A stretch of 64,000 bases of DNA from Lysobacterales bacterium (GTDB lineage: Bacteria > Pseudomonadota > Gammaproteobacteria > Xanthomonadales > Marinicellaceae). The stretch covers positions 1-64,000 of the forward strand of contig JAGRJR010000005.1 of NCBI GenBank assembly GCA_020442635.1. Direction: 5' to 3'. Positions within the stretch are counted from its first letter, which is position 1. Every line of letters starts with the position of its first letter. This document shows, piece by piece, positions 487 to 38,386 of the stretch. Under the pieces are notes generated by a model. The model had not been told where the DNA came from. It ran no database searches and was given only the letters and a program-made list of their open reading frames with translations. A program made the position numbers and the translations under genes.

Positions 487-2358
487 TTACCCAGCCTTCT
501 TCAAATGTACCAGTAACAATGACACGGCTGCCGGGGTCATGCCTTGAATCCTACTCGCTTGGCCGATGGTTTCGGGTTTGATTTGGTTGAGTTTTTCGGT
601 GAGTTCGCCACTCAAACCTCTGATCAGGCTGTAATCCAAATCTGTAGGTAAGGCTTTGTCTGCATGGTTTTTGGCTTTGTCGATTTCTTGTTGTTGGCGT
701 TCAAGGTAACCTGCATATTGGGTTTGAATTTCGACTTGTTCAAGAACTTTTTCTGCTTGCGATGGCAGATTGATTTCATCCAGTTCAATCAGCATACTGA
801 TATTGACCTCTGGACGGCGCAGTAAATCATAAGCACTGGTTTCTTTGCTTAATTCAATACCGGTTTGGGTGGTGAATTTTTTGCCCAGTGCATTGTTTGG
901 ACTGAGCCACACGGCTTTGAGGTGTTCAAGAGAACCTTCCACATGTTGTTTTTTCTCGCAGAAGGCTTGCCACCTGACATCATCAACCAGGCCCAATTCG
1001 CGACCCTTTTCGGTCAACCTGAAATCGGCATTGTCCTCACGCAACATCAAGCGATATTCGGCTCGGGATGTGAACATACGATACGGTTCATTGGTGCCTT
1101 GTGTAATCAAATCATCAATCAAAACACCCATGTAAGCTTCATTCCTTGCCGGTGTCCATGAAGGTTTACCCTGTACTTTCAAAGCTGCATTCATACCAGC
1201 AATCAAACCCTGCGCACCAGCCTCTTCATAACCTGTGGTACCATTGATTTGACCAGCGAAATACAGGCCTTCAACGTACTTAGTTTCCAATGACGATTGC
1301 AAACCTCGCGGATCAAAGAAATCATATTCAATCGCATAACCCGGACGGGTAATGTGGGCTTGCTCAAAACCTTTGATTGAACGTACCAGCTTTAACTGCA
1401 CATCAAATGGCAGTGAAGTCGATATCCCGTTGGGGTACAACTCATGTGTACCTAAACCCTCTGGCTCAACAAATATCTGATGCGAGTCTTTATCAGCAAA
1501 ACGCATGATTTTGTCTTCAATTGAAGGACAATAACGTGGTCCTCGGCCTTCAATCACACCTGAATACATGGGTGATCGATCCAAGCCTGCGCGGATGTAG
1601 TCGTGAGTTTGTAAATTGGTATGCGTGATGTAGCAACTGACTTGTTCAGGCTGTTGTTCTGTTGATCCCATGTATGAAAAAACAGGCCGTGGAGTATCTC
1701 CAGGTTGCTCTTCCATCACCGAAAAATCGACCGTTTTGCCATCAATACGTGGTGGCGTACCTGTTTTCAAACGTGCCACTTCAAAAGGCAAAGCACGTAA
1801 TTTTTGCGCCAAAACTGTTGCTGGCGGATCGCCTGCGCGTCCTCCTGAATAATTCGATAGGCCTATGTGGATTTTTCCTGCCAAAAAAGTACCAACGGTT
1901 AACACCACAGTTTTGGCCATGTAAATCAAACCCATTTGCGTCACACAGCCTTTGACTTGATCATTCTCAATGATTAAATCCTCAACACCTTGTTGAAACA
2001 TGTAAAGGTTTTCTTGATTTTCTACCACTGAACGGATGTGAGCACGATACAAAGCACGGTCACATTGAGCACGTGTTGCTCTTACCGCGGCACCTTTTCT
2101 TGAGTTTAAGGTGCGCCATTGGATGCCCGCATGGTCGGTCGCTTCTGCCATAACACCACCTAATGCATCAATCTCCTTGACCAAATGACCTTTACCTATA
2201 CCGCCAATCGCCGGGTTACAACTCATCTGACCGATGGTTTCAATATTATGAGTCAACAGTAAAGTTTTGGCCCCCACCCGCGCAGCCGCCAGTGCGGCCT
2301 CTGTACCGGCATGGCCGCCACCGACTACAATCACATCAAAAACCTGGTCAAATTTCAT
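487..2358 (-). CDS. mnmG: tRNA uridine-5-carboxymethylaminomethyl modification enzyme MnmG (GidA)
   Basis: MnmG is the FAD-dependent partner of the GTPase MnmE. Together they install the (carboxymethyl)aminomethyl group on C5 of wobble uridine 34 of several tRNAs in the cytoplasm. The 623-residue length matches the family (E. coli 629). The N-terminal dinucleotide-binding motif [11 protein letters not shown] is at about residues 12-22. The conserved [18 protein letters not shown] segment follows near residue 47, and a [16 protein letters not shown]-like block marks the C-terminal half. The common neighbour rsmG is not directly downstream. The gene is divergent from the exported protein at 2514, with about 155 bases between them. 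Confidence 0.97.
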
Positions 2359-2513
2359 GATTCACTCTTATACTTAAAGCAACCTTGTATTATACCAAAA
2401 TATATTGAGAATCAATGTTTTGGCTAATAAATACTGGCATAACACCATCTTATAAACCATTTTTTAACTGTATAAAGACTAAAATATGCCAATTTCCCCC
2501 AATGCAGCACACC

Positions 2514-3968
2514 ATGAAAAGTTGTTTTAAGGCTTATATTTTGTTGGTTTCAATGACCTGTACCGCAGAAGATTTTATACCAGCTCCCAGTAATGAAGTA
2601 TTGAACAATCCGCACCGGGGGTTTATGCTTTGGGGCTCAAATGTCCTGGCTGATGGCGGCTTGCCCGACAACTTTCACGGTGCCAGCATCTATCATGTAT
2701 ATTTACCCTGGCGCATGGTAGAAAGCTCAGATCAGGTGTTTGAATGGGATTTAATTGAACAAACCTATCTTGAACCGATCAGTGATATAGATCCTCAAGC
2801 CACCTTTGTGATGCGATTGGTTGCTGACTATCCTGATGGTCCCGGCTCTGGCATAGATAATCATTACTCCGGTGGTGACATCAACCGTGACTATCCTTTG
2901 TTTTTGGAACAAACACCACTGAATATCGGGCGACGTGTTTATACAGATTGTGATGGTGACGGTCCTGGTATTGCACCAGACTGGAATGATCCAGAATTCA
3001 TCAGTCAAGCCAACCAATTGATTTTGGCCTTTGGACTACATTTTGATGGCGATCCAAGAATCACAGCTGTTCAAGTGGGTTTGTTAGGTTTATGGGGAGA
3101 ATGGCATCAATCTGGCTGTGATACTTTAGCGCCTCATGACACGGTTAAAAACAGCTTGAAAGACACCTATGATTTGGCATTCAACATCACCCCCTTACAA
3201 ACACGTTATGCCAGAAATCCTGATGTCACAAACGTCACTTTTGGTTTTCATGAAGATTATTTCCCTTCATTTACCGCTCAATGCATCTACGGTTTTCCTT
3301 TGTGTAACGACAGCGGCGATTGGAACCTGGAATATGGATTAACACATGTTGTTCCTGCTGCCCGAAACAACTGGCAAGACAACCCCATATCCGGAGAAAG
3401 CCCTTTGACCAGTCAAAAAAATGCGTGGGTCAGTGATGAAGCCGATATCACAACAATAATCAATGATTACCATTTCAGTTTTTTGGGCCCTGCAGGAAAA
3501 CATGAAGAAAGCGGCAACTCCTCAGTAATGAATCGACTAGCTAATCAATTGGGTTATCGGATACAAATAAACCAAATGACCATTAAGACTCCTATTACAA
3601 CTCCGTTAACAACTGTTTCTGTAACAATAGCCAACGTCGGTTCTGCGCCAATTTATCATCCGTATCAACTGGCCTTAGACTGGGTAAATGCAGCCAACCA
3701 AACCGTGACCACCTGGATTTTTGATCAACCAATGAGCGAGTATATGCCCAAGCTTTCAACAACCATTGACCAAAATTTTTTCCAAACACTACCAAACGGT
3801 AGTTATTCTATACGTGCATATGGTAGACCACTGAATCCCAATGCACAGCCATTGACCTTGGCCAATTCAAACAAAGATGTATTGAATCGGGTTATTATTG
3901 GTGAAGTTCAGGTTTCAATAGTTGATTTAATTTTTGCTGATGATTTTGAAACCATCGGTAATGATTGA
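2514..3968 (+). CDS. Exported DUF4832/DUF4874-like protein with IFxDGFE-type tail
   Basis: I place the start at the ATG at 2514. It gives a 484-residue protein with a clean signal peptide (MKSCFKAYILLVSMTCTA, cut before EDF). An upstream ATG at 2415 would put 33 non-signal residues in front. The mature N-terminus reads EVLNNPHRGFMLWG and is followed by YLPWRMVE and a WGEWHQSG motif. This pattern fits DUF4874/DUF4832 proteins, which have a TIM-barrel-like fold and are often linked to polysaccharides, but no substrate can be named. The last residues, DLIFADDFETIGND, are a variant of the tail seen on six other exported proteins here. It probably acts in the periplasm or outside the cell. Confidence 0.65.
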   Translation: MKSCFKAYILLVSMTCTAEDFIPAPSNEVLNNPHRGFMLWGSNVLADGGLPDNFHGASIYHVYLPWRMVESSDQVFEWDLIEQTYLEPISDIDPQATFVMRLVADYPDGPGSGIDNHYSGGDINRDYPLFLEQTPLNIGRRVYTDCDGDGPGIAPDWNDPEFISQANQLILAFGLHFDGDPRITAVQVGLLGLWGEWHQSGCDTLAPHDTVKNSLKDTYDLAFNITPLQTRYARNPDVTNVTFGFHEDYFPSFTAQCIYGFPLCNDSGDWNLEYGLTHVVPAARNNWQDNPISGESPLTSQKNAWVSDEADITTIINDYHFSFLGPAGKHEESGNSSVMNRLANQLGYRIQINQMTIKTPITTPLTTVSVTIANVGSAPIYHPYQLALDWVNAANQTVTTWIFDQPMSEYMPKLSTTIDQNFFQTLPNGSYSIRAYGRPLNPNAQPLTLANSNKDVLNRVIIGEVQVSIVDLIFADDFETIGND

Positions 3969-6601: not shown

Positions 6602-8380
6602 ATGAAATTTGTTGTTGTTTTTTTGCTTATAGGCTCATTCATTGTAAAAGCCAACGAAATTAACTATTCCGTCGGAACTATTGGCATATGCGATTACGCA
6701 ACGCCACAACAAGCATTAGATGCCATCAATGCAAAAAACGTGCCTGGTAAAAGAGCAGGTGTTGATAACTACCACTTAAGATTAGTTGCTGAAACCTTTG
6801 CCGATGGATTTTATATCAGTGACAAAGATGAATTTAAATTGACCGGTGGTTATGAAAATTGTTTAGCAGCTGAAAACATGATCAGAGAACCTGGCAGTCA
6901 ATCAATCATTGATGGCAATGGTTCAGTAGCGATGGCATTATTAAACAACAACCCCGAAAACATCCAAATGCATGTCACTGGATTAAAGGTCATCAACGGC
7001 ATTAGTGGCGGTTTTTTTCCCTCAGGAGGATTAAATGTAGCTGGTAATTTAGATGTTATCATCAGAGAGTCAACATTTGAAAACAACAACAGCCTCTGGG
7101 GAGGTGGTATCTATGCAGGTGAAAATACCTACTTGAGAATGGTAGAGACTATGGTAATCAATAATGATGCCACCTTTGGTGGTGGTATTTACTGTACAGA
7201 TTGTATTTTGACCCTAAGCACGGATAGTGGTATCACTGATAATCACTCCATTGAAAATGGTGGTGGCATCTTTATGAACAATGGTAGCAGCCTCTCACTG
7301 TTTTCTGGCTCTGATAATCCCTTGTTGGATGACTTTGGTGTTCATAATAATGTGGCAGGACAACTGGGTGGTGGAATTTTTATTGAACAATCATCGGCCG
7401 TTTTGTATGGCTTTGCGTTTAATGGCAATGGTGATGACATTAATCCTGTTAGTGTCACTCACAACACCGCATTACAAGGAGGCGGAATTTATGCAGTAAC
7501 AGCTAACGTGAATTCAGCACTACTCAACTTAAGCAATAATAAAGCCAGTCAGGCTGGCGCTGGAGTTAGTCTGAATGTCAATTCTTCTTTTAATCTTGAT
7601 ATTTTAGACCCATTGGATGTGCCATTTACCTCTTGCTGGAATCACAATAAAAGCAAATGTAACTTGATTCAAAATAACATCATCCAGAACGGTGCTGCCA
7701 CTGGTGCGCATGGTGGCGCATTTGATGTCAATGATTCAATATTGAAGGTCGAATACACTTGGTTTGAAGGTAACGATGCTGGCGGGCAAGGTGATGGTGC
7801 AGCGTTGGCTTTTAACAGTATCAATCCTGGCTCAAGAATTGATCAAAGTGTATTTCATAACAATGGCTACCCGACAGGTGATGACAACAGCATGATTTAT
7901 CTGTCTACTTTTTCAAATATCTCTGTCAGACAAAACACCTGGACTGATAACAACATTTCGCAAGCTCTGGTTCAAATTGAGGATTCGGGCAGTGGTATTG
8001 ATTTACGCAATTCCGTGATCAGCAACTTAAATGGTGATACCGTTCTGGACTATCCTGCCATGGCAAATGTAAGCGCTGAATGTATGTTAACTCATGAGAG
8101 CACCTCATTTCCTCCACCACCTGCAACAAATAATGTCTGGCAAGGAGACCCCATGTTTTACAACAGAGCCGGTGATGATTTTAGAGTCTTAGGCGCATCA
8201 GTCACTACCATTGACCGTTGCGCACCGATTGTTGGTTTGGATGTGGTTGATCTGGCCATGCAAAATCGCCAGCACGATGTTGAAAATCTAGCAAATGACG
8301 ACAGTAATTACGTAGATACAGGCGCCTATGAGTACCAAGGTATCAGCCCAGATGTGATTTTTATCGATGGTTTTGAATAG
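6602..8380 (+). CDS. Secreted right-handed beta-helix protein with IFxDGFE tail
   Basis: The start is supported by GAGGTGA eight bases upstream and by a signal peptide (MKFVVVFLLIGSFIVKA, then NE). The 592-residue product is Asn/Gly-rich, with repeated GGGIY/GGGIF turns (for example NNSLWGGGIYAG, NDATFGGGIYC, IENGGGIFM). These are typical of parallel beta-helix proteins of the polymorphic-outer-membrane/choice-of-anchor type. The C-terminal part (DPMFYNRAGDDFRVLG ... VDTGAYEY) resembles the choice-of-anchor Q region. The protein ends DVIFIDGFE. It is probably a surface or extracellular protein. No catalytic motif is visible, so adhesin or carbohydrate-binding roles are guesses. Confidence 0.8.
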   Translation: MKFVVVFLLIGSFIVKANEINYSVGTIGICDYATPQQALDAINAKNVPGKRAGVDNYHLRLVAETFADGFYISDKDEFKLTGGYENCLAAENMIREPGSQSIIDGNGSVAMALLNNNPENIQMHVTGLKVINGISGGFFPSGGLNVAGNLDVIIRESTFENNNSLWGGGIYAGENTYLRMVETMVINNDATFGGGIYCTDCILTLSTDSGITDNHSIENGGGIFMNNGSSLSLFSGSDNPLLDDFGVHNNVAGQLGGGIFIEQSSAVLYGFAFNGNGDDINPVSVTHNTALQGGGIYAVTANVNSALLNLSNNKASQAGAGVSLNVNSSFNLDILDPLDVPFTSCWNHNKSKCNLIQNNIIQNGAATGAHGGAFDVNDSILKVEYTWFEGNDAGGQGDGAALAFNSINPGSRIDQSVFHNNGYPTGDDNSMIYLSTFSNISVRQNTWTDNNISQALVQIEDSGSGIDLRNSVISNLNGDTVLDYPAMANVSAECMLTHESTSFPPPPATNNVWQGDPMFYNRAGDDFRVLGASVTTIDRCAPIVGLDVVDLAMQNRQHDVENLANDDSNYVDTGAYEYQGISPDVIFIDGFE

Positions 8381-17442: not shown

Positions 17443-18729
17443 TTAAAACACCGGACAACTTGGCGGTGGAGGGTCACCTTCAAAACCATTGGCAAAGATT
17501 GGATCAATTATTGGTTCAAAACCATCATAGAAAATCAAATCACTACCTAACAGACTACTGATACTCGGAGGTGTACCGAAAGGCAAACTACTGCCATCTC
17601 CAAATGGAAATGGATCAATGTTATCGACCAAGGTAGTTATCACACCAGTATTAACATCTATCCAACGTCCTGTATTTTCATTGGCAAATACTGCAACCAG
17701 TTTATTCTGTTGGCTGAACATCAAGCTGGTCAGAACACCCGTATTGTTCCCGGCATCTGCATACTCTGTACAAGTGGCTTGCATGGTACCTGCATTCACT
17801 TCAATTAAGACATCACGGTCATCATAAGACATGGAATCCAATGCATAGTAATTGCCATTTAACGGACTAACGGCAAAATCATGGATGCCATAGTCAAGTA
17901 CCGAAGTACTGGCCAAACAGGCTTGTACAGCGGCTTGTTCATCACCGTTTGCCAAGTAATCGCCCACCACACATTGAGAAAATGTGTTAGTCCGAACAGC
18001 GAATTGGTTCATCACTGCAGCACAAGTGGCATCAGTACTGGTATCTGCTTCCAACCAGGCGGTCAAAATATTACCGCCATTGGCTGCCGTTAATGCTGCA
18101 CTGCTGACCTGACCAATCATGATTTTAGGTGCTTTGTACAATACTTCCGCCGTTCCTGCCATCACATTAGCACTGGACTCATAATTGGTTTTATAGCCCA
18201 GCACAAACATACTACCTGTAGCATTAAAAGAAGAAGCTGAGTGCACAATTGGAATAACCTGCTCTTCACCTGGCGGTAAAACCGCATCTTCTGTTGGTGG
18301 TTGTATGGCGCCAATTCTTTGGTAACCGCCATCATTACCTATACGATAAACATCGACAGCATCAGCCTTCATCATATCACCTGGCTGACCGGGTGATGGA
18401 AATGGAAAAACATCGAATTGAATATGTGCTCCAATACCCATGGCATCAGTTGGCATCAAGCCATATAAAAACTGATCACTTGGATTAAGTCCCAAACCAT
18501 TAATTGGGTTTGTCAGCAAACCACAGCCATTTAAAACACTGATTTGTTGCTGATCTGACATATTGGTACATTGTGAATACAATGCGTTGGTTCCCATCAC
18601 ATCGTTGCTGATGGTAAATGCTTTGTTATTGTAATCACTAAAAATGGTCGTTGCATCTGGCGTACACAATTGAGCTGTGGCCGAAGTACCTACAACAAGG
18701 CCCAATCCTATTTTGAAAATGTTTTTCAT
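17443..18729 (-). CDS. Exported protein of unknown function with two DGFE-type motifs at the C-terminus
   Basis: I choose the ATG at 18729. It has a CGGGGA ribosome binding site and a signal peptide (MKNIFKIGLGLVVGTSATAQ). The open frame extends 55 codons further upstream without signal character. The 428-residue mature protein is rich in Ala, Asn and Asp, with few strong motifs (ALDSMSYDDRDVLIEVN, NENTGRWIDVNTG). These suggest a beta-propeller-like or DUF4394-like repeat structure, which is inference. The end carries two copies of the tail motif, DLIFYDGFE and DPIFANGFE, followed by a Pro-rich GDPPPPSCPVF. No enzymatic function can be assigned. Confidence 0.7.
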   Translation of the reverse strand: MKNIFKIGLGLVVGTSATAQLCTPDATTIFSDYNNKAFTISNDVMGTNALYSQCTNMSDQQQISVLNGCGLLTNPINGLGLNPSDQFLYGLMPTDAMGIGAHIQFDVFPFPSPGQPGDMMKADAVDVYRIGNDGGYQRIGAIQPPTEDAVLPPGEEQVIPIVHSASSFNATGSMFVLGYKTNYESSANVMAGTAEVLYKAPKIMIGQVSSAALTAANGGNILTAWLEADTSTDATCAAVMNQFAVRTNTFSQCVVGDYLANGDEQAAVQACLASTSVLDYGIHDFAVSPLNGNYYALDSMSYDDRDVLIEVNAGTMQATCTEYADAGNNTGVLTSLMFSQQNKLVAVFANENTGRWIDVNTGVITTLVDNIDPFPFGDGSSLPFGTPPSISSLLGSDLIFYDGFEPIIDPIFANGFEGDPPPPSCPVF

Positions 18730-19049
18730 AAATCCCCGAGCTATATCACACCAAGTATTTTTAACATTGATGATATGACCTGTCAATGATTTCAAATTCA
18801 CTTGAAAAAAAACATCCTTTTCCTGTCTAGAGAGGTAGTCAAAACGCTTTTCATTTCGAATAATTGACAAACTTTTGTACAGATATTTTGTCATAAGTAT
18901 CTTTTACTGATGCTTTAGGGTGTAACACAGGTTTTCTTTATTTCAATTTTCATGTTACAAATTGTGAATTAACGTTTTTGAAATTGACCAAAACCTTATT
19001 CATTGTTATGCTAATTACCATATTAAAAATTTAATGAGGAGTAAACACT
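18730..19049. other. Divergent intergenic region with the lysM promoter
   Basis: The first 165 bases remain open in the frame of the minus-strand exported protein but look non-coding. The remainder holds the lysM promoter (18984-19012), listed separately, and its ribosome binding site. No other gene or repeat is seen. Confidence 0.6.
18984..19012 (+). promoter_or_regulatory. Sigma-70-type promoter of lysM
   Basis: TTGACC (18984-18989) and TATGCT (19007-19012) are separated by exactly 17 bases, 37 bases before the lysM start codon. A GAGGAG ribosome binding site follows. The match to the housekeeping consensus is good (5/6 and 4/6). Confidence 0.7.
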
Positions 19050-29201: not shown

Positions 29202-31652
29202 TCAATCTTGCTCTTGAACCTTTTTTTCCATTGCTTTGAGTTTTTCTTTGGCTTGTAATGTAAAAGAGTTGTCCGGTCCATAAACTTGATTTTTCAATTC
29301 TATGACGTTTTGAATCGTTTTTAGTGCTTCACTCAATTCATCACTTAAATACAAAGCCCAGGCTTTGGCCTCTAACATTTCAAGGGTGACCTGATGTTTG
29401 GCACCCAGTTTTTCTTCTGACATCACCAGATATTTATCCAGCAATGTTTTTGCCTCTTCTGGTTGATTCTGTTTGTTATACAATTCTGCCAGATTAAACA
29501 CCGTTGATAAGGTAAACACGTGATATTCACCCATGTGTCTGGATGCTTTATCAATGATATTTAAGTATATCTCTGCGGCTTCTCCGGATTGTCCTAAACC
29601 CACTTTGGTGATGGCCAAGGCTGACTGAAAATAAAGGTAAAATTCACTGTTTGTATTTTCAATTGATTCAAAAACAGGTAGATATTGAGTCTCTATTTCA
29701 AGCGCTTGTTGAAATGCTTCCAACTGGTTCAGGTTGCTTATAAAATTAATGGTTATGATCAGGTGCTTTGGATGCTCCTCACCAAAATACCGGCCTGATT
29801 CTTTTTGCAAGGTATCTAAAACAGCCAAAGACTTTTCTGGCTGTCCGGCTTGAGCCAGTGTTGCTGCCAGATTTGTTCTGGCTTCGATGATACTGACATT
29901 GACATCATTTTCAGCATACTTTTCGGCAAGCGCTAATGCTGATTGGTAATACTGGCTGGCCTCGTAATACTGACCATTTGAAGCGTGTAAGTTACCTAAT
30001 TGATTAGTCATTTTGAATTGTTGCAAACCATTGCTTTTATTCTCTTCCTTTTGCTGCCAATAACTCAAAGCCTCTAGCAATGATTGTTTAGCTCCATCAA
30101 GATCATTATCCCATTGCTCAATAAGCGCATTTAAATAGGCAAGTTCTGCTGTAAGCTGGGCATCAAAGCCGTCTCCCGATCCGATTAAATCTTTTACTTT
30201 TAAAACAATATGTTCGATTTCCTCTAATCTTTGCTGGTGGGTGATTTCAACATATTGCTCTAACAATTGTCCTTTTCTTAATAATATGTGGGCCCTTAAC
30301 TCTGTTGAAATGAGATCATTCGACAGCACATGATCAATAAGCTCCAAGCCCTGGCTTTGAAATCCAAGGTTAAATTGTGATATGGCTAAAGTCGCCAGTG
30401 CTCGACCCTTTGTTGTGTCATTTATGTTCTGCGCTTCTTTGGTATTGGCTATCAACTCATTAAGAACGTTTATCATTAAAACATCTTTCCCTTCGCGCGA
30501 GGGTGACACTGTTGATAACAAATCGTACATCAAAGCATTGATTTCTGAGGTCTCTTTTAATGATAAATTGGTCCTTTCCTGTTCCTTCTTTAACTGGTGG
30601 TAATTAATCAGACTGAGCGCCAGTACCACACTCAGCATCGTAAATATTGAAGCAATTGCAATTCTTTTCATCCGTTTAAACGGCCTTTGTTTTAACTCAA
30701 TCAATTGGTTCTTAATGTGTTGAGCAGCAGGTCGTTTGTTTGGATTACTGCTCAGCATTTGCGTAATCAAGCCCTTCAAGATTGCTGGCAATTTATTAAA
30801 GCTCAACTTTCTAATGGGTTGCTGCAACAATTTCTTTAATTCTGTCATGCTGGCTGGGTTATACGGATATGTTCCATCATTAAAGATGTAGTAATAAACC
30901 ACTCCCAAGGCGTAAACATCTGATGCACTGGTAGTTTTTTTATCATGAAACAGTTCAGGAGCCATGGCTAATGGCGTGTAAGCAGTAACCATCCTGTTCG
31001 ATTGTTCTTTTAAGTCGTGTCCTGCACCAAAATCCATCAGGACGGCACCCCGACCTGGCTCAATCATGACATTCTGAGGCTTGATATCGGCATGTACCAC
31101 ATGGTTTTTATGAATGGCGTTCACTGCATGGGCCAATTGGAGTGCAAGATTCAGTTTTTCATCATAGCCCAGTGACTGAATTTCAAACTCTGCCAATGTT
31201 TTGCCACTGAGTAACTCTGACCAAAAACCAGCCACATTCTGATCGATTTGCGCACCAAAAATTGCCATGATGTGCGAGTGCCTGATTTTAGCCACTCGTC
31301 TGGCTTCTTCAATAAATGATTCGGGCGAAATGTATTGACTGGATTGACTGGAAAGAAATTTTACCGCTACATCCCTGTTTAAAACGGGGTCAAAAGCTAA
31401 GTAGACATCACCCATGCCACCGGAGGCAATCTTATCTTTGATTTGCAAACCGCCCCAATGCGCTTGAGGAGATTTTGAATTTGGATTCAAAGAGCGCTCT
31501 GGACAATGATTAAATTGTTGCTTGACCTTATTAAGTAAATTGATTTTTTCCAGGTTGGATTCATTGAACAACTCATGTTCTTGTTCAGTAGAGAGCTCAC
31601 CAGTCAGACTTTTGAGCGCTTGCAGTAGTTTGTCTTTATCGTGCTCGTTCAC
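29202..31652 (-). CDS. Transmembrane Ser/Thr protein kinase with TPR-rich C-terminus
   Basis: The 816-residue protein has a Hanks-type kinase domain (about residues 70-320). It includes a glycine-rich loop KIASGGMGDVYLA, Lys98 in VAVKFL, catalytic Asp189 in HADIKPQN and DFG at 207-209. One membrane segment follows (about 331-351, IASIFTMLSVVLALSLIN). The periplasmic part of about 460 residues is made of helical TPR-like repeats (YYQSALALAEKYAEND, EAAEIYLNIIDKASRH). The activation segment contains several Ser/Thr (SNRMVTAYTPLAMAPE). Its start overlaps the ECF sigma factor gene by four bases (ATGA), so the sigma factor is its likely partner and substrate. What the TPR domain senses is unknown. 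Confidence 0.93.
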   Translation of the reverse strand: MNEHDKDKLLQALKSLTGELSTEQEHELFNESNLEKINLLNKVKQQFNHCPERSLNPNSKSPQAHWGGLQIKDKIASGGMGDVYLAFDPVLNRDVAVKFLSSQSSQYISPESFIEEARRVAKIRHSHIMAIFGAQIDQNVAGFWSELLSGKTLAEFEIQSLGYDEKLNLALQLAHAVNAIHKNHVVHADIKPQNVMIEPGRGAVLMDFGAGHDLKEQSNRMVTAYTPLAMAPELFHDKKTTSASDVYALGVVYYYIFNDGTYPYNPASMTELKKLLQQPIRKLSFNKLPAILKGLITQMLSSNPNKRPAAQHIKNQLIELKQRPFKRMKRIAIASIFTMLSVVLALSLINYHQLKKEQERTNLSLKETSEINALMYDLLSTVSPSREGKDVLMINVLNELIANTKEAQNINDTTKGRALATLAISQFNLGFQSQGLELIDHVLSNDLISTELRAHILLRKGQLLEQYVEITHQQRLEEIEHIVLKVKDLIGSGDGFDAQLTAELAYLNALIEQWDNDLDGAKQSLLEALSYWQQKEENKSNGLQQFKMTNQLGNLHASNGQYYEASQYYQSALALAEKYAENDVNVSIIEARTNLAATLAQAGQPEKSLAVLDTLQKESGRYFGEEHPKHLIITINFISNLNQLEAFQQALEIETQYLPVFESIENTNSEFYLYFQSALAITKVGLGQSGEAAEIYLNIIDKASRHMGEYHVFTLSTVFNLAELYNKQNQPEEAKTLLDKYLVMSEEKLGAKHQVTLEMLEAKAWALYLSDELSEALKTIQNVIELKNQVYGPDNSFTLQAKEKLKAMEKKVQEQD

Positions 31653-32194
31653 AACCTTATATACTTTAACAATTTTGCCAAAGCGCGGTTAAACTGCATT
31701 CTGGCAGCATCTTCACTGTTTTTTTCTAAAGCACCAGCAATTTCATTGAATGACATACCAAACTCAACCCTTAATATGATGATGTCCTGTTCAGACTGCG
31801 TCAGTTTAAGTAATGCCTCTTCATAAATAACCAACTCATCAATATCATCCTTTAATATCAATTTTGATTGTTGCATTTGAGCCTCTTCAAGTGACTGTGT
31901 GGCTTTTTCTGACCTGAGCTTTTCGTTAATGGTATTTATAAAAATTCGGCGCAAATAAGCCAAAAAAGACCCTGGTCTTAATGATTGAAAGTCATTCAGT
32001 TTATTCATACCTTTGACCAAGGTTTCCTGAACTACATCAGAGGTATCAATTAAACTATCCAGGGTTCTGGGAATTCTGCCATGCGCCCAACTCAATAAGG
32101 TAGGATAAACATATTCAGCCAACTGTTCATTGGCACGCTTATCACCTTGCTTTGATTGCTCAATCAAAATAGCGGTTTTAGATGGATCAAACAT
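31649..32194 (-). CDS. ECF sigma factor, probably controlled by the adjacent kinase
   Basis: With the ATG at 32194 (GGGTG upstream) the protein has 181 residues. The longer frame would need a TTG start at 32215. Region 2 spans about residues 8-85 and region 4 about 120-178 (LTQSEQDIIILRVEFGMSFN, then EIAGALEKNSEDAARMQ). Region 2.2 reads DTSDVVQETLVKG at residues 50-62. Common ECF factors carry an acidic DAED-like motif there. No anti-sigma factor gene is nearby; a Ser/Thr kinase gene is coupled instead. This resembles the ECF43 type (EcfP/PknT in Vibrio parahaemolyticus), where the kinase phosphorylates a Thr in region 2 and so activates the factor. Group assignment is inference. Confidence 0.9.
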   Translation of the reverse strand: MFDPSKTAILIEQSKQGDKRANEQLAEYVYPTLLSWAHGRIPRTLDSLIDTSDVVQETLVKGMNKLNDFQSLRPGSFLAYLRRIFINTINEKLRSEKATQSLEEAQMQQSKLILKDDIDELVIYEEALLKLTQSEQDIIILRVEFGMSFNEIAGALEKNSEDAARMQFNRALAKLLKYIRL

Positions 32195-32220
32195 AACACC
32201 CGTAATAAATTTCAAAAATA

Positions 32221-32247
32221 TGTTCGGATTCAGACACTGGTTGCATT
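32221..32247 (+). promoter_or_regulatory. TGTTCGG-N15-GCATT element upstream of beta-helix gene 1
   Basis: TGTTCGG (32221-32227) and GCATT (32243-32247) are separated by 15 bases, 31 bases before the start codon at 32279. The same spaced pair occurs upstream of the two following paralogues and of the HzsA-like gene. It is a candidate ECF-type promoter. It also lies in the divergent region of the sigma factor gene. Confidence 0.5.
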
Positions 32248-32278
32248 GGTAACCTATCTTAAATTAAAAAGGTGACTT

Positions 32279-33373
32279 ATGCAGTTAAAAAAGATATCTG
32301 TTATTTTACTGTTGTTTTGGCAATACATATTAGACAGCCAAGCAGCTGAATTTTGTGCGACTAACAGCACAGAATTGACCAATGCTTTATCCAGTGCAGA
32401 AAACAACAATCAACATGATGTGATTAAAATTGCTGTTGGCAATTATGAAGGAGGTTTTACATTTACTGGGGGCGAAGGATATGATTTGTCCATCAGTGGC
32501 GGTTGGAGCGATTTTTTTGGCAATCCTTGCGGGCAACAAATCAATCCACCCTTTGACACCATTTTAGATGGAGATAACAGCCAAAAAGTATTGGATATCA
32601 TTGCACATGATGACAATGACATCACCATTTCTAACCTTACTTTAATCAATGGCAACGCATTACCCGGCAGTGCTGGCGGACTTGAATTATTTGGCTGGAC
32701 TGGTTACGTGGGAGATGTCATCATCGAAAAAGTGGCCTTCATCAACAACAAAGGCAACTTCCATTCAGCCCTAAGCGTTTCAAGAGGTCGTAAAATCACT
32801 GTAAGAAACAGTATTTTTGCCATCAATGAAAACACCACTGGTGATGGCACTGTGGATTTAAACAACAGTGAACTTGGTATCTACTTTAATAACAATACAC
32901 TTGTAAATAACACATCAGTGGCAACCGATTCCAGTGTGCACTCAGGGCTGAGAGCCAATTTCCACGATGGTGCAGGTATATTCGTTGCTAATAATTTATT
33001 TTGGAATAATGACGGGCACGATGCCTATTTTGGTGGCGTTAACATGACCACCACCGAATCGTATTTATATAACAATAACATTAACTCTTATATCGGTACA
33101 ATTCATAACATCGAAAACAATTTCACAGCAGAACCCATCTTCGAAAATGGCTTTTTAAATTACACGCCAACAATTGCCTCACCTGAAATCAATCAAGGTC
33201 GTCAATCACCGTTTTTTGTACCAGTACCACCCCCCTTTAATATGCAGTGGGGGGTTGGCATAACAGATTTCGAAGGCAACACCAGAGTTCAAGATGGCAG
33301 GGTTGATGTTGGCGCCATTGAAGCAGAACCGGAAGAGCCTATTTTTAAAAATGGCTTTGAAATCATTCTTTAA
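32279..33373 (+). CDS. Secreted beta-helix protein, tandem copy 1, with GFE tail
   Basis: The 364-residue product has a signal peptide (MQLKKISVILLLFWQYILDSQAA, then EFCATNS) and an AAGGTGA ribosome binding site. The body is a right-handed parallel beta-helix rich in Asn and Gly (FGNPCGQQ, TILDGDNSQKVLDI, IYFNNNTLVNNTS, FVANNLFWNNDGHD). The end resembles the choice-of-anchor Q region (TRVQDGRVDVGAIE). It finishes EPIFKNGFEIIL, the shared tail. There are two conserved Cys (FC near the mature N-terminus and NPCG) that could form a disulfide. No catalytic motif is visible. It starts 84 bases from the divergent sigma factor gene. It may be an adhesin or matrix protein, which is not shown. Confidence 0.82.
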   Translation: MQLKKISVILLLFWQYILDSQAAEFCATNSTELTNALSSAENNNQHDVIKIAVGNYEGGFTFTGGEGYDLSISGGWSDFFGNPCGQQINPPFDTILDGDNSQKVLDIIAHDDNDITISNLTLINGNALPGSAGGLELFGWTGYVGDVIIEKVAFINNKGNFHSALSVSRGRKITVRNSIFAINENTTGDGTVDLNNSELGIYFNNNTLVNNTSVATDSSVHSGLRANFHDGAGIFVANNLFWNNDGHDAYFGGVNMTTTESYLYNNNINSYIGTIHNIENNFTAEPIFENGFLNYTPTIASPEINQGRQSPFFVPVPPPFNMQWGVGITDFEGNTRVQDGRVDVGAIEAEPEEPIFKNGFEIIL

Positions 33374-33451
33374 ACAGTCATAAACCATCTAATATTTTTT
33401 GCTGCTTTTAACTGGGTTAAAAGTGATTTTCCACGGCCATTTGGTCGTCTG

Positions 33452-33485
33452 ATAAGTGTCCAAATTAACTATTTTGGACACTTAT
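33452..33485. repeat. Perfect 13-bp inverted repeat after beta-helix gene 1
   Basis: ATAAGTGTCCAAA (33452-33464) pairs with its exact complement at 33473-33485 around an 8-base loop. A closely related hairpin with the same GTGTCCAAA core and loop length follows gene 2. No T-run follows, so termination would be inefficient. It may instead be a transcript end stabiliser or protein-binding palindrome. Confidence 0.7.
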
Positions 33486-33528
33486 GTTGCTTCAAATTAT
33501 AAAATAATGACACTCCTTTAAAATTATT

Positions 33529-33555
33529 TGTTCGGTACTGTCCATTAAATGCATT
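33529..33555 (+). promoter_or_regulatory. TGTTCGG-N15-GCATT element upstream of beta-helix gene 2
   Basis: TGTTCGG (33529-33535) and GCATT (33551-33555) have the same 15-base spacing as upstream of gene 1. The element lies 36 bases before the start codon at 33592. A promoter here implies that each tandem copy is transcribed separately. Confidence 0.5.
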
Positions 33556-33591
33556 CACTCATCATTAATAATAAAAACTATGAGGTGATTT

Positions 33592-34686
33592 ATGCAACTG
33601 AAAAAAATAGCAGTTATATTAACTATAGCTTGGCAATTTTCCATATCTACACACGCTGCGGAGTTTTGTGTGACTAATAGCACTGAACTTTCAAGCGCTC
33701 TGATAACATCCCAAAACAATAGCCAAAGTGATGTGATAAAAATTGCAATTGGCAGTTATACGGGAGGGTTCGCTTATTCAGGCTCAGAAGACTTCCATTT
33801 ATCCATTAGTGGCGGTTGGAGTGATTTTTTTGGCAATCCTTGTGGACAACAAATCCATATGCCTTTTGATACGATTCTAGATGGAAATAACACACAAAGA
33901 GTGATGATTATCCAGGCTTGGGCTAATTCTGATATCAACATTTCAAACATGACTTTTATTAATGGTAATGCCAATCCCGACAGCGCAGGTGGGTTAGAGG
34001 TGCGATCTTTTGAAAACTATGTGGGTGATGTACTTGTTGAAAAGGTTGCATTCATAAACAATAAAGGTCATTTCAATTCAGCCCTAGAAATCTCAAGAGG
34101 ACGAAAAATCACCGTAAGAAACAGTATTTTTGCCATCAACCATAATACGACTGGAGATGGTACTATAGATTTAAATAATGCTGGTCTTGGTATATATTTT
34201 AACAACAATACAATAGTCAACAATACTTCTGACGCAACTGACCCTGGTGTCATTTCGGGTTTGCGTGCTAACTTTCATGACGGAGCAGGTATTTTCCTTG
34301 CTAACAACCTATTCTGGAATAACGACGGTCACGACGCTTCTTTTGCCGGTGTGAATATGACCGCAACAGAATCCTATTTGTATAACAATAACATAGATAC
34401 CTATATCGGCCTCATTCATACAATCGAAAATAATTTCTCCGAAGCACCCATTTTTGAAGGTGGTTTTTTAAACTACACACCAACAATCGCCTCACCTGAA
34501 ATCAACCAGGGCCGTAATTCACCTTTTTTTGTACCAGTACCACCGCCTTTCAATATGCAGTGGGGGGTCGGAATAACAGATTTCGAAGGCAACACCAGAG
34601 TTCAAGACAGAAGAGTTGATGTTGGCGCCATTGAAGCAGAACCGGAAGAACCTATTTTTGAAAATGGTTTCGAAATCATTCTTTAA
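33592..34686 (+). CDS. Secreted beta-helix protein, tandem copy 2, with GFE tail
   Basis: This is the second of three paralogues. It has 364 residues with signal peptide (MQLKKIAVILTIAWQFSISTHAA, then EFCVTNS), a GAGGTGA ribosome binding site and the same beta-helix body (ISNMTFINGNANPDSAGG, IYFNNNTIVNNTS, FLANNLFWNNDGHD). It ends EPIFENGFEIIL. At DNA level its last roughly 120 bases are nearly identical to copy 1, with two unbroken 35-base identities. Its first half instead shares stretches such as GSEDFHL and VMIIQAW with copy 3 (VMLIQAW). It therefore looks like a mosaic shaped by recombination between neighbours. No enzymatic motif is seen. Confidence 0.82.
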   Translation: MQLKKIAVILTIAWQFSISTHAAEFCVTNSTELSSALITSQNNSQSDVIKIAIGSYTGGFAYSGSEDFHLSISGGWSDFFGNPCGQQIHMPFDTILDGNNTQRVMIIQAWANSDINISNMTFINGNANPDSAGGLEVRSFENYVGDVLVEKVAFINNKGHFNSALEISRGRKITVRNSIFAINHNTTGDGTIDLNNAGLGIYFNNNTIVNNTSDATDPGVISGLRANFHDGAGIFLANNLFWNNDGHDASFAGVNMTATESYLYNNNIDTYIGLIHTIENNFSEAPIFEGGFLNYTPTIASPEINQGRNSPFFVPVPPPFNMQWGVGITDFEGNTRVQDRRVDVGAIEAEPEEPIFENGFEIIL

Positions 34687-34730
34687 AAATCACAAGTCAA
34701 TGTAAGACTTTTTAGGTTGCTCTCAACTGG

Positions 34731-34772
34731 CAACACAGGTGTCCAAATTAAACATTTTGGACACCTGTGTTG
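34731..34772. repeat. Perfect 17-bp inverted repeat after beta-helix gene 2
   Basis: CAACACAGGTGTCCAAA (34731-34747) pairs without mismatch with 34756-34772 around an 8-base loop. It shares the GTGTCCAAA core with the hairpin after gene 1. TTGTTTCTATTTAT follows, a weak T-rich tract. It is likely an intrinsic terminator or mRNA 3'-end element duplicated together with the gene. Confidence 0.75.
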
Positions 34773-34825
34773 TTTCTATTTATCAGGAAATGAATTAACA
34801 ACCATCACTTACCTCTTCAATAATT

Positions 34826-34852
34826 TGTTCGGTTCTGTTAATTCATTTACTT
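34826..34852 (+). promoter_or_regulatory. TGTTCGG-N15-TACTT element upstream of beta-helix gene 3
   Basis: TGTTCGG (34826-34832) is followed after 15 bases by TACTT (34848-34852), 26 bases before the start codon at 34879. The heptamer and spacing match genes 1 and 2; the downstream box differs in its first three bases. Confidence 0.45.
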
Positions 34853-34878
34853 CATGTAATTAAAGAAAGAGGTGACTC

Positions 34879-35970
34879 ATGAAACTAAAAACAATCGCGG
34901 TGATATTTGCCATTTCATGGCCGTTTTGTTTCTCTGCTCAAGCTGCTGAATTTTGCGTGACTAATAGTATTGAACTTAAAAATGCTTTGACCTCATCCCA
35001 AAACAACAGTCAAAGTGATGTGATTAAAATTGTGACTGGCAGTTATACAGGAGGTTTTTCTTATTTAGGCTCAGAAGACTTCCATTTAACCATCAGTGGA
35101 GGTTGGAGTGATTTTTTTGGCAATCCTTGCGGGCATCAAATTCATACACCTTTGGATACGATATTGGATGGAAATGACACACAAAGAGTGATGCTTATCC
35201 AGGCTTGGGCCGGCTCTAACATCAGCATTTCAAACATGGCAATTATTGATGGTGATGCCTATCCCGCCAGCGCTGGTGGTTTAGAGATTCGATCACACGA
35301 AAATTATGTAGGTGATGTTCTCGTTGAAAAAGTAGCATTCGTTAATAACAAAGGCTTTTTTCATTCAGCTTTAGCAACTTCAAGAGGCCGAAAAATTACT
35401 GTCAGAAATAACATTTTTGCTGTTAATGAAAATATCACAGGAAACGGCACTGTGGAAATAAACGACGCAGGCCTCGGCATCTATTTTAATAACAATACAA
35501 TTGTCCTTAACACATCACTAGCAAATGATGCAGGTGTGAACTCTGGACTCAGAGCCACTTTGTATGAAGGGGCTGGTTTATTTGTTGCCAACAATTTATT
35601 TTGGGATAACGATGGTCATGATGTTACTTTTATCGATGTTGATATGATAACAACAGAATCATATTTATATAACAACAATATTGACACTTATGTTGGAACC
35701 ATCCATAACGTCGAGAACAACTTCACAGCTCAGCCAATCTTTGATAATGATATTTTTTTAGCACCAACTATCGCTTCTCAAGAAGTTAATAACGGTCGTA
35801 ATTCACCTTTGTTTGTACCAGTACCACCTCCCTTTAATATGCAGTGGGGTGTCGGTATTACTGACTTCAATGGTAATGCAAGAATACAAGATGATAAAGT
35901 TGATGTTGGAGCCATTGAAGTAGAGCCAGAAGAACCCATTTTTAAAAATGGATTTGAAATTATTCTATAA
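34879..35970 (+). CDS. Secreted beta-helix protein, tandem copy 3, with GFE tail
   Basis: The third paralogue has 363 residues with signal peptide (MKLKTIAVIFAISWPFCFSAQAA, then EFCVTNS) and a GAGGTGA ribosome binding site. It shares the same framework (ISGGWSDFFGNPCG, IYFNNNTIVLNTS, FVANNLFWDNDGHD) and ends EPIFKNGFEIIL. It is the most diverged copy, with many synonymous differences over the last 120 bases compared with copies 1 and 2. Its own promoter-like element precedes it and a genuine rho-independent terminator follows. The function is unknown. Secretion could depend on a type II system, since gspA and gspB are encoded 8 kb away, but that is inference. Confidence 0.82.
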   Translation: MKLKTIAVIFAISWPFCFSAQAAEFCVTNSIELKNALTSSQNNSQSDVIKIVTGSYTGGFSYLGSEDFHLTISGGWSDFFGNPCGHQIHTPLDTILDGNDTQRVMLIQAWAGSNISISNMAIIDGDAYPASAGGLEIRSHENYVGDVLVEKVAFVNNKGFFHSALATSRGRKITVRNNIFAVNENITGNGTVEINDAGLGIYFNNNTIVLNTSLANDAGVNSGLRATLYEGAGLFVANNLFWDNDGHDVTFIDVDMITTESYLYNNNIDTYVGTIHNVENNFTAQPIFDNDIFLAPTIASQEVNNGRNSPLFVPVPPPFNMQWGVGITDFNGNARIQDDKVDVGAIEVEPEEPIFKNGFEIIL

Positions 35971-36007
35971 ATAAATGACCGTCAAGTTATAATCTCAAAG
36001 TTAAACT

Positions 36008-36044
36008 GCAGCCAGCTTAAATCATTTTTACTGGCTGCTTTTTT
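36008..36044 (+). terminator. Terminator after the beta-helix gene array
   Basis: GCAGCCAG (36008-36015) pairs with CTGGCTGC (36031-36038) and is followed by six Ts (36039-36044). It ends seven bases before the convergent HzsA-like gene stop at 36051. Confidence 0.88.
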
Positions 36045-36050
36045 GTAGGC

Positions 36051-38228
36051 TTAATTAAAGCCATCCTCAAAAATCAAATCCTCAAAGTTGGCATCCCAAT
36101 GACGAAGCAATTGTCTGAAGGCTTCCGGTTTGATGGTAGATGGCAATTGTCCTGCTTGATCGACTTGGTTGACACCATGACAACCACCACAAGCACGAAT
36201 TTCACCTGGCTGAAAAGTAATCCAATAACGTTCTCGCACCACAGGTTCTTCTGTAGGTGATAAAGTCTGCCAGCTCAAGGCCCGTTGTGCAGGTACAAAA
36301 AAGGCCACTGAACCATCTGGATAGACTTCAGCGCTACCCGGTGGAGCATTTGTAAAATTGATGTTTTGACTCATCGCACGCTGCTCATGTAAATATTGCG
36401 CAATAACTCTTTGACCCGGATCAGGGTTGGATATGCCCCCATAACCCCTGATTTGATCCCCTTGAAGAAATTGCAAGTGTGAAACCTCGTATAGCAACCC
36501 ATTGTTACCAATGGTTTGGTGTGGACTACCAGCCACTTTTAAATTATAAGGTTGCTGTAAATCCAGTTCGTCTCGTGTTGTTACATCACGCATCACCACC
36601 ACACTCAAATTATTGGTTCGCAAAAAGCCCTGGAACATGGCTAAATCAATATTCTCCTCCGCGATCACCTGTAACTCAGGCGCTTGTAAGGTTTGCTGCG
36701 TCAATGTTGGTACAGTGCGACTGACTACCTCTACGGGTCTCATTTCCCAAAGAGGACCTGTATAGGTAACCAATACATCAGGGTCATAATAAGAGATGGT
36801 AACATCACCTAAATTAGTAAGGCGAGTACCTGGTATCCAATCACTACTGGCATTTTGAGTTAATTTTTTGATGGTAAAATCATAACGAGGCTGAGGATTG
36901 GCTCGGGTACCATCATTTCCAGCACGATGTGTTTCAGCCGTATGCACGGCGAGCAATTGACCATCATTTAGTGTCAACGGACTTCTGAAAAAACCCACAT
37001 GCTCCAAAGGAGGTGTTATACCCTCATCGACAACTTCACGAGTGCTTTCATGGCTCAAATATTCAACTTGTACTTGAGAAGGATCAGCACCCACAGGTAA
37101 ATTAAAAGCAATCAACTGCCCCGCAGCATGGGTGGCAAATTCAGGTGCATCAATAGCCAAATACCTACCTGCTTGGTTTGGATCTTCATGCATTTGAAAC
37201 ACATTAAGTATGCTGTTTTGATTGGGTCTGCCACCACCGGCAATAAATTCCACTAAACCCGGATCATCATTCAAACTGCGATTAAAATAACTGTGAAACT
37301 CATGCCTGCCGACATGATTCAATGTCTCCTCCTCTGTGCCGTCCTGATTCAACTGCCATGGAAAGAAATGATTGAACCGATGACCTTCCAGGTTGGTACC
37401 ATCTAATAGGGCAGACTCAGCAGGTCGTGGTTCTGGGAACACTTCTGCTACGGTATTAATCGCAGTGGCATTTGGGCTTTCATCTGTATAATTAAAAGCA
37501 TCAAACACATTAACTGGTGAAGCTTGTTGATCGCGCTGCAAATGATCCCAACGGGTAAACAACAAACGACCATAACTATCAATCAACGGGCTGAACGAGC
37601 CAGAAGGAGAATGTTGCATCAATTTCACCTGGCCATCTTGTAATTTCCACAATCCAGTATTGGTTGGTGTTGACTCATACTCATCATATTGTGGATAGTT
37701 GAAACGATTTTTAGTTCGAGGCATGTCAGAAGTAAAAATAATGGCGTCATCGGAACCATATATCGGTGTGATGTTGTTATAATTTTCTGGCTGACCGGCA
37801 ATCGGTGAAATACTGACGGCGTCCCCCTGTCCCAATCCGGTGACCTCATAGATTTGCCAAAAATAATCATTATAATCAAACTGTTCTGGGGCGCCTATCA
37901 CCATACTGAACAAGGCCTTTTGACCACTCCAATGCACATGAGGATCTCGAACCGCGATGGCGTTTGCACCCTGTAAACCAGTCATACCATAACCGGCTTC
38001 CCTGGTTAAATTGCGCAAGGTGCCATCTGGATATTGAATGTATAAATCACCCCCTCTTCCCACGCTCTGCATACTCGCTGAATGATTGGCAAAGGTCGAA
38101 CCGATGGTGGCAAAATCATTGGCAATCGGAAACTGAGTCACAAACAAGATTGGATTGTTGAGGTTGATACCTCCAGCAAAACTTTGCGTAACCAGTAAAA
38201 ACAGAAATAAAACTCTCAACATAATCAT
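36051..38228 (-). CDS. Exported HzsA-like protein with one CxxCH haem motif and DGFN tail
   Basis: The 725-residue protein has a signal peptide (MIMLRVLFLFLLVTQSFA, then GG). Its long body shows propeller-like segments (DAIIFTSDMPRTKNRF, YGRLLFTRWDHLQRD). A C-terminal region follows with one c-type haem site, ACGGCH in GEIRACGGCHGVNQ. The layout resembles proteins annotated with the hydrazine synthase alpha-subunit middle domain. In ordinary heterotrophs these are not true hydrazine synthases, and anammox chemistry should not be inferred. The last residues, EDLIFEDGFN, are the shared tail. A TGTTCGG element lies about 150 bases upstream. The role may be extracytoplasmic redox chemistry, function unknown. 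Confidence 0.75.
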   Translation of the reverse strand: MIMLRVLFLFLLVTQSFAGGINLNNPILFVTQFPIANDFATIGSTFANHSASMQSVGRGGDLYIQYPDGTLRNLTREAGYGMTGLQGANAIAVRDPHVHWSGQKALFSMVIGAPEQFDYNDYFWQIYEVTGLGQGDAVSISPIAGQPENYNNITPIYGSDDAIIFTSDMPRTKNRFNYPQYDEYESTPTNTGLWKLQDGQVKLMQHSPSGSFSPLIDSYGRLLFTRWDHLQRDQQASPVNVFDAFNYTDESPNATAINTVAEVFPEPRPAESALLDGTNLEGHRFNHFFPWQLNQDGTEEETLNHVGRHEFHSYFNRSLNDDPGLVEFIAGGGRPNQNSILNVFQMHEDPNQAGRYLAIDAPEFATHAAGQLIAFNLPVGADPSQVQVEYLSHESTREVVDEGITPPLEHVGFFRSPLTLNDGQLLAVHTAETHRAGNDGTRANPQPRYDFTIKKLTQNASSDWIPGTRLTNLGDVTISYYDPDVLVTYTGPLWEMRPVEVVSRTVPTLTQQTLQAPELQVIAEENIDLAMFQGFLRTNNLSVVVMRDVTTRDELDLQQPYNLKVAGSPHQTIGNNGLLYEVSHLQFLQGDQIRGYGGISNPDPGQRVIAQYLHEQRAMSQNINFTNAPPGSAEVYPDGSVAFFVPAQRALSWQTLSPTEEPVVRERYWITFQPGEIRACGGCHGVNQVDQAGQLPSTIKPEAFRQLLRHWDANFEDLIFEDGFN

Positions 38229-38359
38229 CCTACCTGTAAATTAACCATTGTATATGTTTCACAATTACCAAGCTGTTAACCACCTCCCAGTTTCCCTATA
38301 TCAACAAGCTCAATCATGCAAACCAGTCATTAATATTTTTAAAGCCTCTCAGCTTATAT

Positions 38360-38386
38360 AAGGAAACCACATGGCTAAACCGAACA
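38360..38386 (-). promoter_or_regulatory. TGTTCGG-N15-TCCTT element upstream of the HzsA-like gene
   Basis: On the minus strand TGTTCGG (38386-38380) is followed after 15 bases by TCCTT (38364-38360). Spacing is identical to the three beta-helix genes, but the distance to the start codon (38228) is longer, about 130 bases. This is the fourth copy in this neighbourhood and the only one on the minus strand. Confidence 0.4.

Follow-up and report, generated by a model that had tools for sequence, protein, structure and literature searches.

A spaced TGTTCGG element beside a kinase-linked ECF sigma factor gene is a probable promoter for genes of tailed exported proteins

In a draft genome of a Lysobacterales bacterium, the heptamer TGTTCGG recurs upstream of four genes for tailed exported proteins that lie beside an ECF sigma factor gene, which raises the question of whether these sites are promoters read by that sigma factor. 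We addressed this in a window of 64,000 nucleotides (the whole stretch of DNA analysed, contig C218 of the 3.54-Mb draft genome), in which genes were called with a simple caller written for this analysis and not with a standard program. The elements span 27 bp, and their distances are counted from the element start to the start codon. The features are as follows.

29202..31652, minus strand: membrane Ser/Thr kinase gene (816 aa; Pfam Pkinase 1.6e-38, and TPR)
31649..32194, minus strand: ECF sigma factor gene (181 aa, ATG start; from Pfam, AlphaFold helix and alignment)
32221..32247, plus strand: putative promoter element 1, TGTTCGG-N15-GCATT, 58 bp before ATG
32279..33373, plus strand: exported beta-helix protein 1 (364 aa, tail PIFKNGFEIIL)
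33529..33555, plus strand: putative promoter element 2, TGTTCGG-N15-GCATT, 63 bp before ATG
33592..34686, plus strand: exported beta-helix protein 2 (364 aa, tail PIFENGFEIIL)
34826..34852, plus strand: putative promoter element 3, TGTTCGG-N15-TACTT (weaker -10), 53 bp before ATG
34879..35970, plus strand: exported beta-helix protein 3 (363 aa, tail PIFKNGFEIIL)
36051..38228, minus strand: exported protein with a hydrazine-synthase-alpha-like (HzsA-like) middle domain (725 aa; Pfam HZS_alpha 6.6e-12; tail LIFEDGFN)
38360..38386, minus strand: putative promoter element 4 (heptamer 38380-38386), TGTTCGG-N15-TCCTT, 158 bp before ATG

The sigma factor classed as ECF (group 4), whose members have just Sigma70 regions 2 and 4: it matched PF04542 (33.5 bits, cut-off 24) and PF07638 (33.3, cut-off 21.1), while the region 4 family PF08281 was marginal (25.0 against a cut-off of 25.7), and Foldseek matched the protein to CnrH, SigW and sigma-E. 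Its best family match, NCBIfam TIGR02984 (Sig-70_plancto1), reached 76.3 bits, below the cut-off of 183.75. Region 2.2 carries the motif DTSD, and residue 162 in the recognition helix is Asp. An alternative TTG start at 32215 is possible for this gene. The kinase gene lies downstream on the same strand and overlaps the sigma gene by 4 bp; motifs and hydropathy indicated a cytosolic kinase domain (HADIK, DFG, APE), one transmembrane helix (331-349) and C-terminal TPR repeats. Divergent from this pair are the three tandem beta-helix genes, the first product of which gave an AlphaFold model of a beta-helix with pLDDT 88. All four target proteins end in an IFxxGF(E/N) tail, for which no model was found in the profile libraries searched.

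The original prediction, that four intergenic heptamers adjoin the sigma gene, each followed after exactly 15 bases by GCATT, GCATT, TACTT or TCCTT, was borne out at every position and strand, as were the gaps from element end to start codon (31, 36, 26 and 131 bp) and the placing of the remaining heptamers of the window (11401, 12759, 17992, 20318 and 48668) in coding frames only. The bare heptamer was not enriched by itself, with 9 occurrences in the window and 5.4 ± 2.5 in shuffles. The spaced element occurred 5 times, once in coding sequence, compared to 0.54 expected from Markov shuffles. Counting against a promoter reading are the poor -10 boxes of elements 3 and 4 and the 158 bp that separate element 4 from its gene.

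The search was extended to the whole genome by pattern matching, with sites placed against called genes and checked by hand. Only 5 of the 45 sites matching TGTTCG[GT]N16[AC]NTT were in promoter position on the correct strand, namely the four window elements and one on contig C203, which is 67 bp ahead of the gene for a tailed 838-aa protein and adjoins a second ECF-kinase pair. In each case the downstream gene encodes an IFxxGF tail and lies beside one of the two closest ECF-kinase pairs. Three further sites that seemed intergenic (C262, C12 and C187) were rejected because they fell within coding regions, in one case that for a signal peptide. Across this genome, enrichment was evident in promoter position only and not in overall site number, as a wider pattern, TGTTCGN-N14/15-KCRTY, matched 38 sites and its reversed control 32. 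In sampled DNA of the same genome the element preceded 6 of 50 tailed genes, one of these being a false start call, and none of 281 other genes; the sample was drawn from regions around TGTTCGG sites and tailed genes and was hence not random, although sampling around TGTTCGG sites would if anything bias it toward matches before other genes. The element was rejected as a genome-wide marker of tailed genes, since only 5 of about 50 carry it, and those 5 all lie beside an Asp-type ECF-kinase pair.

We then compared homologs of the sigma factor together with their flanking DNA, of which up to about 9 kb was retrieved if the contig was long enough. A tailed gene, often a beta-helix relative, was present within 9 kb in 37 of 53 discovery loci. 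The spaced element recurred before tailed genes of other genera as well as other families. It was found in related ECF-kinase loci of the same family (L198, two at L199, L200 and L201) and was matched in other families (L270, L245, L283, L297, L341 and L342), mostly 53-70 bp before the ATG. Unsupervised two-block expectation maximization (EM), run over 38 upstream regions from the family, yielded TGTGtngT-N12-tnGCaTT with one dominant gap, the spacing being that of TGTTCGG-N15-GCATT. Its log-likelihood was 129.8 compared to 68.8 ± 5.9 (maximum 81.9) in 20 Markov shuffles, using 37 regions after a near-copy was dropped; kinship among the sequences inflates this score, so the locus-by-locus tests below weigh more. 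The same procedure applied to high-G+C loci at the order level returned a meaningless GC-rich motif and was discarded. Based on these comparisons, GCATT ([GTC]C[AGC]T[TC]) is the predicted -10 consensus, and the TACTT and TCCTT of elements 3 and 4 appear to be weaker versions of it.

The upstream block took two forms, TGTTCG in loci that include L198, L199, L200, L201, L214, L245 and L270 and TGTG[TC] in most other loci, and these varied with residue 162 of the sigma factor, which is second in the predicted recognition helix (AlphaFold helix 161-180). The full forms were TGTTCG-N14/15-GCATT with Asp162 and TGTG[TC]-N14/15-GCATT with Asn162. A fixed rule (TGTTC or TGTG[TC], N14/15, [GTC]C[AGC]T[TC], no more than 160 bp from a tailed gene) applied to 95 loci gave TGTTC:TGTG counts of 11:1 for Asp and 1:19 for Asn (Fisher p=1.1e-6), where shuffles predicted 0.13, 0.31, 0.24 and 0.57 for the four cells. 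About forty of these loci had played no part in forming the Asp/Asn hypothesis, the exact rule having been fixed after a first look, and they gave 3:0 for Asp and 1:4 for Asn. Another 16 loci, retrieved only once the rule had been settled, formed a second held-out set and gave 2:0 and 0:2; among them, L341 and L342 have TGTTCGG-N14-GCATT 59 bp upstream of tailed genes. The two sets pooled gave 5:0 versus 1:6 (p=0.015). Tailed genes close to an Asp-type sigma factor had a recognisable element in 11 of 25 cases, and those close to an Asn-type one in 19 of 51, so that more than half of such genes had none. In the Asp-type locus L201, one beta-helix gene has a TGTG-type and not a TGTTC-type site. 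In family f12, many of the Asp-type loci had neither tailed genes nor the element. In the sigma factor tree, Asp and Asn were each clustered, the Asp label changed 5 times, and the 3-4 phylogenetically independent pairs were all concordant, a number too small to reach significance. Alignment through CnrH placed residue 162 near Gly168 of sigma-E, next to described base contacts, in a helix that contacts the -35 in sigma-E and SigW (PMC6713349). Since other positions also differ between the Asp and Asn groups, residue 162 serves as a marker and a candidate determinant only.

Could the motif be one 7-mer among many, picked by eye? The ordinary frequency of the bare heptamer is what chance would give. 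The spaced and positioned element, however, stood far above shuffles both in the window and in loci not seen before, and the held-out sets refute this explanation, to which we assign a negligible probability. A second account is that the sites are leftovers of one promoter region that was duplicated together with the tailed genes and kept without selection. Three of the targets are indeed tandem paralogs, 67-77% identical, and the original prediction had allowed that the beta-helix copies share the element by descent. Descent alone proved insufficient: between copies 1 and 2, which are 77% identical in protein and 53% at third codon positions, the heptamer is 100% identical, compared to 27% for the spacer and 40% for the upstream flank. 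The HzsA-like gene, as that prediction had also stated, is unrelated to the beta-helix genes and on the other strand; the 838-aa gene is likewise unrelated to them, and the element is common to these, to unrelated genes for 844- and 1599-aa proteins and to other families. Duplication without selection is thus largely refuted and highly improbable as an explanation.

An element under selection might still be the operator of a conventional DNA-binding regulator that the sigma factor gene merely adjoins, and the AT-rich flanks of the heptamer would be compatible with an operator half-site. We regard this as quite improbable, given two blocks at a fixed spacing of 14-15 bp, 53-70 bp before start codons, that recur beside ECF-kinase pairs, with one block varying with the recognition-helix residue of the sigma factor; in the neighbourhoods of related loci no conserved regulator gene was seen. 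It is rather unlikely, and a reading to which we give somewhat more weight, that these promoters are read in vivo chiefly by another ECF-kinase paralog of the genome, for example that of C203, or that several cross-read them. The C203 sigma factor is 48% identical, is also Asp-type and has a TGTTCGT target, but adjacency points to the local sigma factor, and in each locus the sigma type matches its own neighbours. Collectively, the recurrence, spacing and location of the element and its co-variation with sigma type argue that the four elements very probably serve the adjacent ECF sigma factor as -35/-10 promoters, and this factor would control a small, mostly local regulon of tailed exported proteins. 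The -35/-10 reading of the original prediction was thus upheld in recurrence, spacing and the variation of the -35 with the recognition helix, and was refined in its -10 consensus and its reach.

By this promoter model, the sigma factor probably binds core RNA polymerase, with domain 4 reading TGTTCGG and domain 2 the GCATT-like box 15 bp downstream, and from this geometry transcription is predicted to start 20-30 nt before most start codons. The TPR region of the kinase would face the periplasm, and gene pairing and precedent suggest that the membrane kinase most likely activates the sigma factor when this extracytoplasmic part senses a signal. By analogy with EcfP/PknT and EcfK/PknS (PMC8999054, PMC13147305), the kinase would phosphorylate the sigma factor, for which the invariant Thr of [DE]TxD is the obvious candidate site.

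Few experiments have addressed kinase-linked ECF sigma factors, and we found no promoter motif for them in the literature searched; a literature search for TGTTCGG together with sigma factors also returned nothing relevant. The present analysis supplies a predicted promoter and predicted targets for such factors, and offers a first way into the regulation of the IFxxGFE-tailed proteins. On a wider scale, we see an even chance that one order of Gammaproteobacteria holds a distinct kinase-linked ECF group, often with several copies per genome, each driving a private set of IFxxGFE-tailed exported proteins from promoters in which a single residue of the recognition helix largely dictates the form of the -35 (TGTTCG for Asp, TGTG[TC] for Asn). 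This specificity hypothesis for residue 162 is testable by a single mutation.

The geometry found here is that of group 4, and sigma-E and SigW promoters have spacers of 15-16 bp. As in E. coli sigma-E and B. subtilis SigW, a -35 of about 7 bp, read by the recognition helix, is combined with a short -10 (PMC6713349). The -35 here is TGTTCG or TGTG[TC] with a GCATT -10, whereas theirs contain GAAC or GAAAC, and unlike in those systems no autoregulatory element was present before the sigma gene in the window. On the target side, the closest solved structure to the beta-helix model in Foldseek was Rhombotarget A, a GlyGly-CTERM protein, at 14% identity. Targets of rhombosortase have a C-terminal Gly/Ser motif followed by a hydrophobic segment and a basic end (PMC6219818), whereas the IFxxGFE tail ends the protein (PIFKNGFEIIL) with no transmembrane segment or basic end after it, so a GlyGly-CTERM identity was rejected. 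The nearest precedent is ECF43, represented by EcfP/PknT of Vibrio parahaemolyticus and EcfK/PknS of Xanthomonas citri, in which an ECF gene likewise lies beside a transmembrane Ser/Thr kinase gene, with a conserved Thr in region 2.2 and no anti-sigma gene seen (PMC8999054, PMC13147305). Membership in ECF43 was rejected, since NCBIfam TIGR02999 (Sig-70_X6) scored 36.6 bits, below its cut-off of 126.15, and region 2.2 is DTSD and not QTTA-type. The neighbours also differ, being tailed beta-helix and other exported proteins here and not type VI secretion or polymyxin-resistance genes. The Thr is present in 92 of 92 alignable relatives, mostly within [DE]T.D. ECF43 proteins lack the DxxD acidic residues (PMC13147305), which are kept here, and the phospho-Thr of EcfP is at motif position 3, whereas the invariant Thr here is at position 2, suggesting that the switch may work differently from that of ECF43.

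We examined how targets and predicted promoters pair at related loci encoding an ECF sigma factor and a Ser/Thr kinase, where the sigma residue at position 162 (Asp or Asn) goes with a TGTTCG or a TGTG[TC] −35 element, respectively.

L207 (G014:C69), 1735-3918, minus strand: homolog of the HzsA-like gene, adjoining an Asn-type sigma gene
L201, 5424-6494, plus strand: beta-helix gene, adjoining an Asp-type sigma factor
L214, 7695 and 344, both minus strand: TGTTCGG-N14-GCATC, upstream of the kinase gene and another small secreted-protein gene

The L207 homolog carried a TGTGTGA-like site at −120, with a weak −10, in place of TGTTCGG: the kind of target is as in the window and the predicted promoter type is switched. 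The single exception among Asp-type cases was the L201 beta-helix gene, whose sole site was TGTG-type (TGTGTTG-N14-GCATT at −150). The L214 element precedes the kinase gene, which itself seems to belong to the regulon in some loci.

Inverted repeats were found behind two of the tandem beta-helix genes.

Window 33457-33490: inverted repeat after beta-helix gene 1
Window 34740-34770: inverted repeat after beta-helix gene 2

The repeats were near-identical (GTGTCCAAATTAA..TTTTGGACAC) and are likely terminators, suggesting that each beta-helix copy may be a separate transcription unit.

A genome-wide pattern search returned 47 occurrences of the tail motif IFxx[DN]GFE versus 0 for the reversed pattern: the tailed exported proteins form a large family, and no model for the tail was found in Pfam or NCBIfam.

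Window 8357-8377, plus strand: example tail-motif match
Window 17479-17535, minus strand: two tail-motif copies near the end of ORF 17443-18894

This ORF carries a duplicated tail, IFYDGFE then IFANGFE, the copies lying 36 bp apart.

Finally, the Asn-type sigma–kinase–beta-helix set of L208 (genome G012) and the window's Asp-type set were both flanked by putA and cytochrome oxidase genes, and this shared neighbourhood suggests that the module was swapped in place or has diverged.
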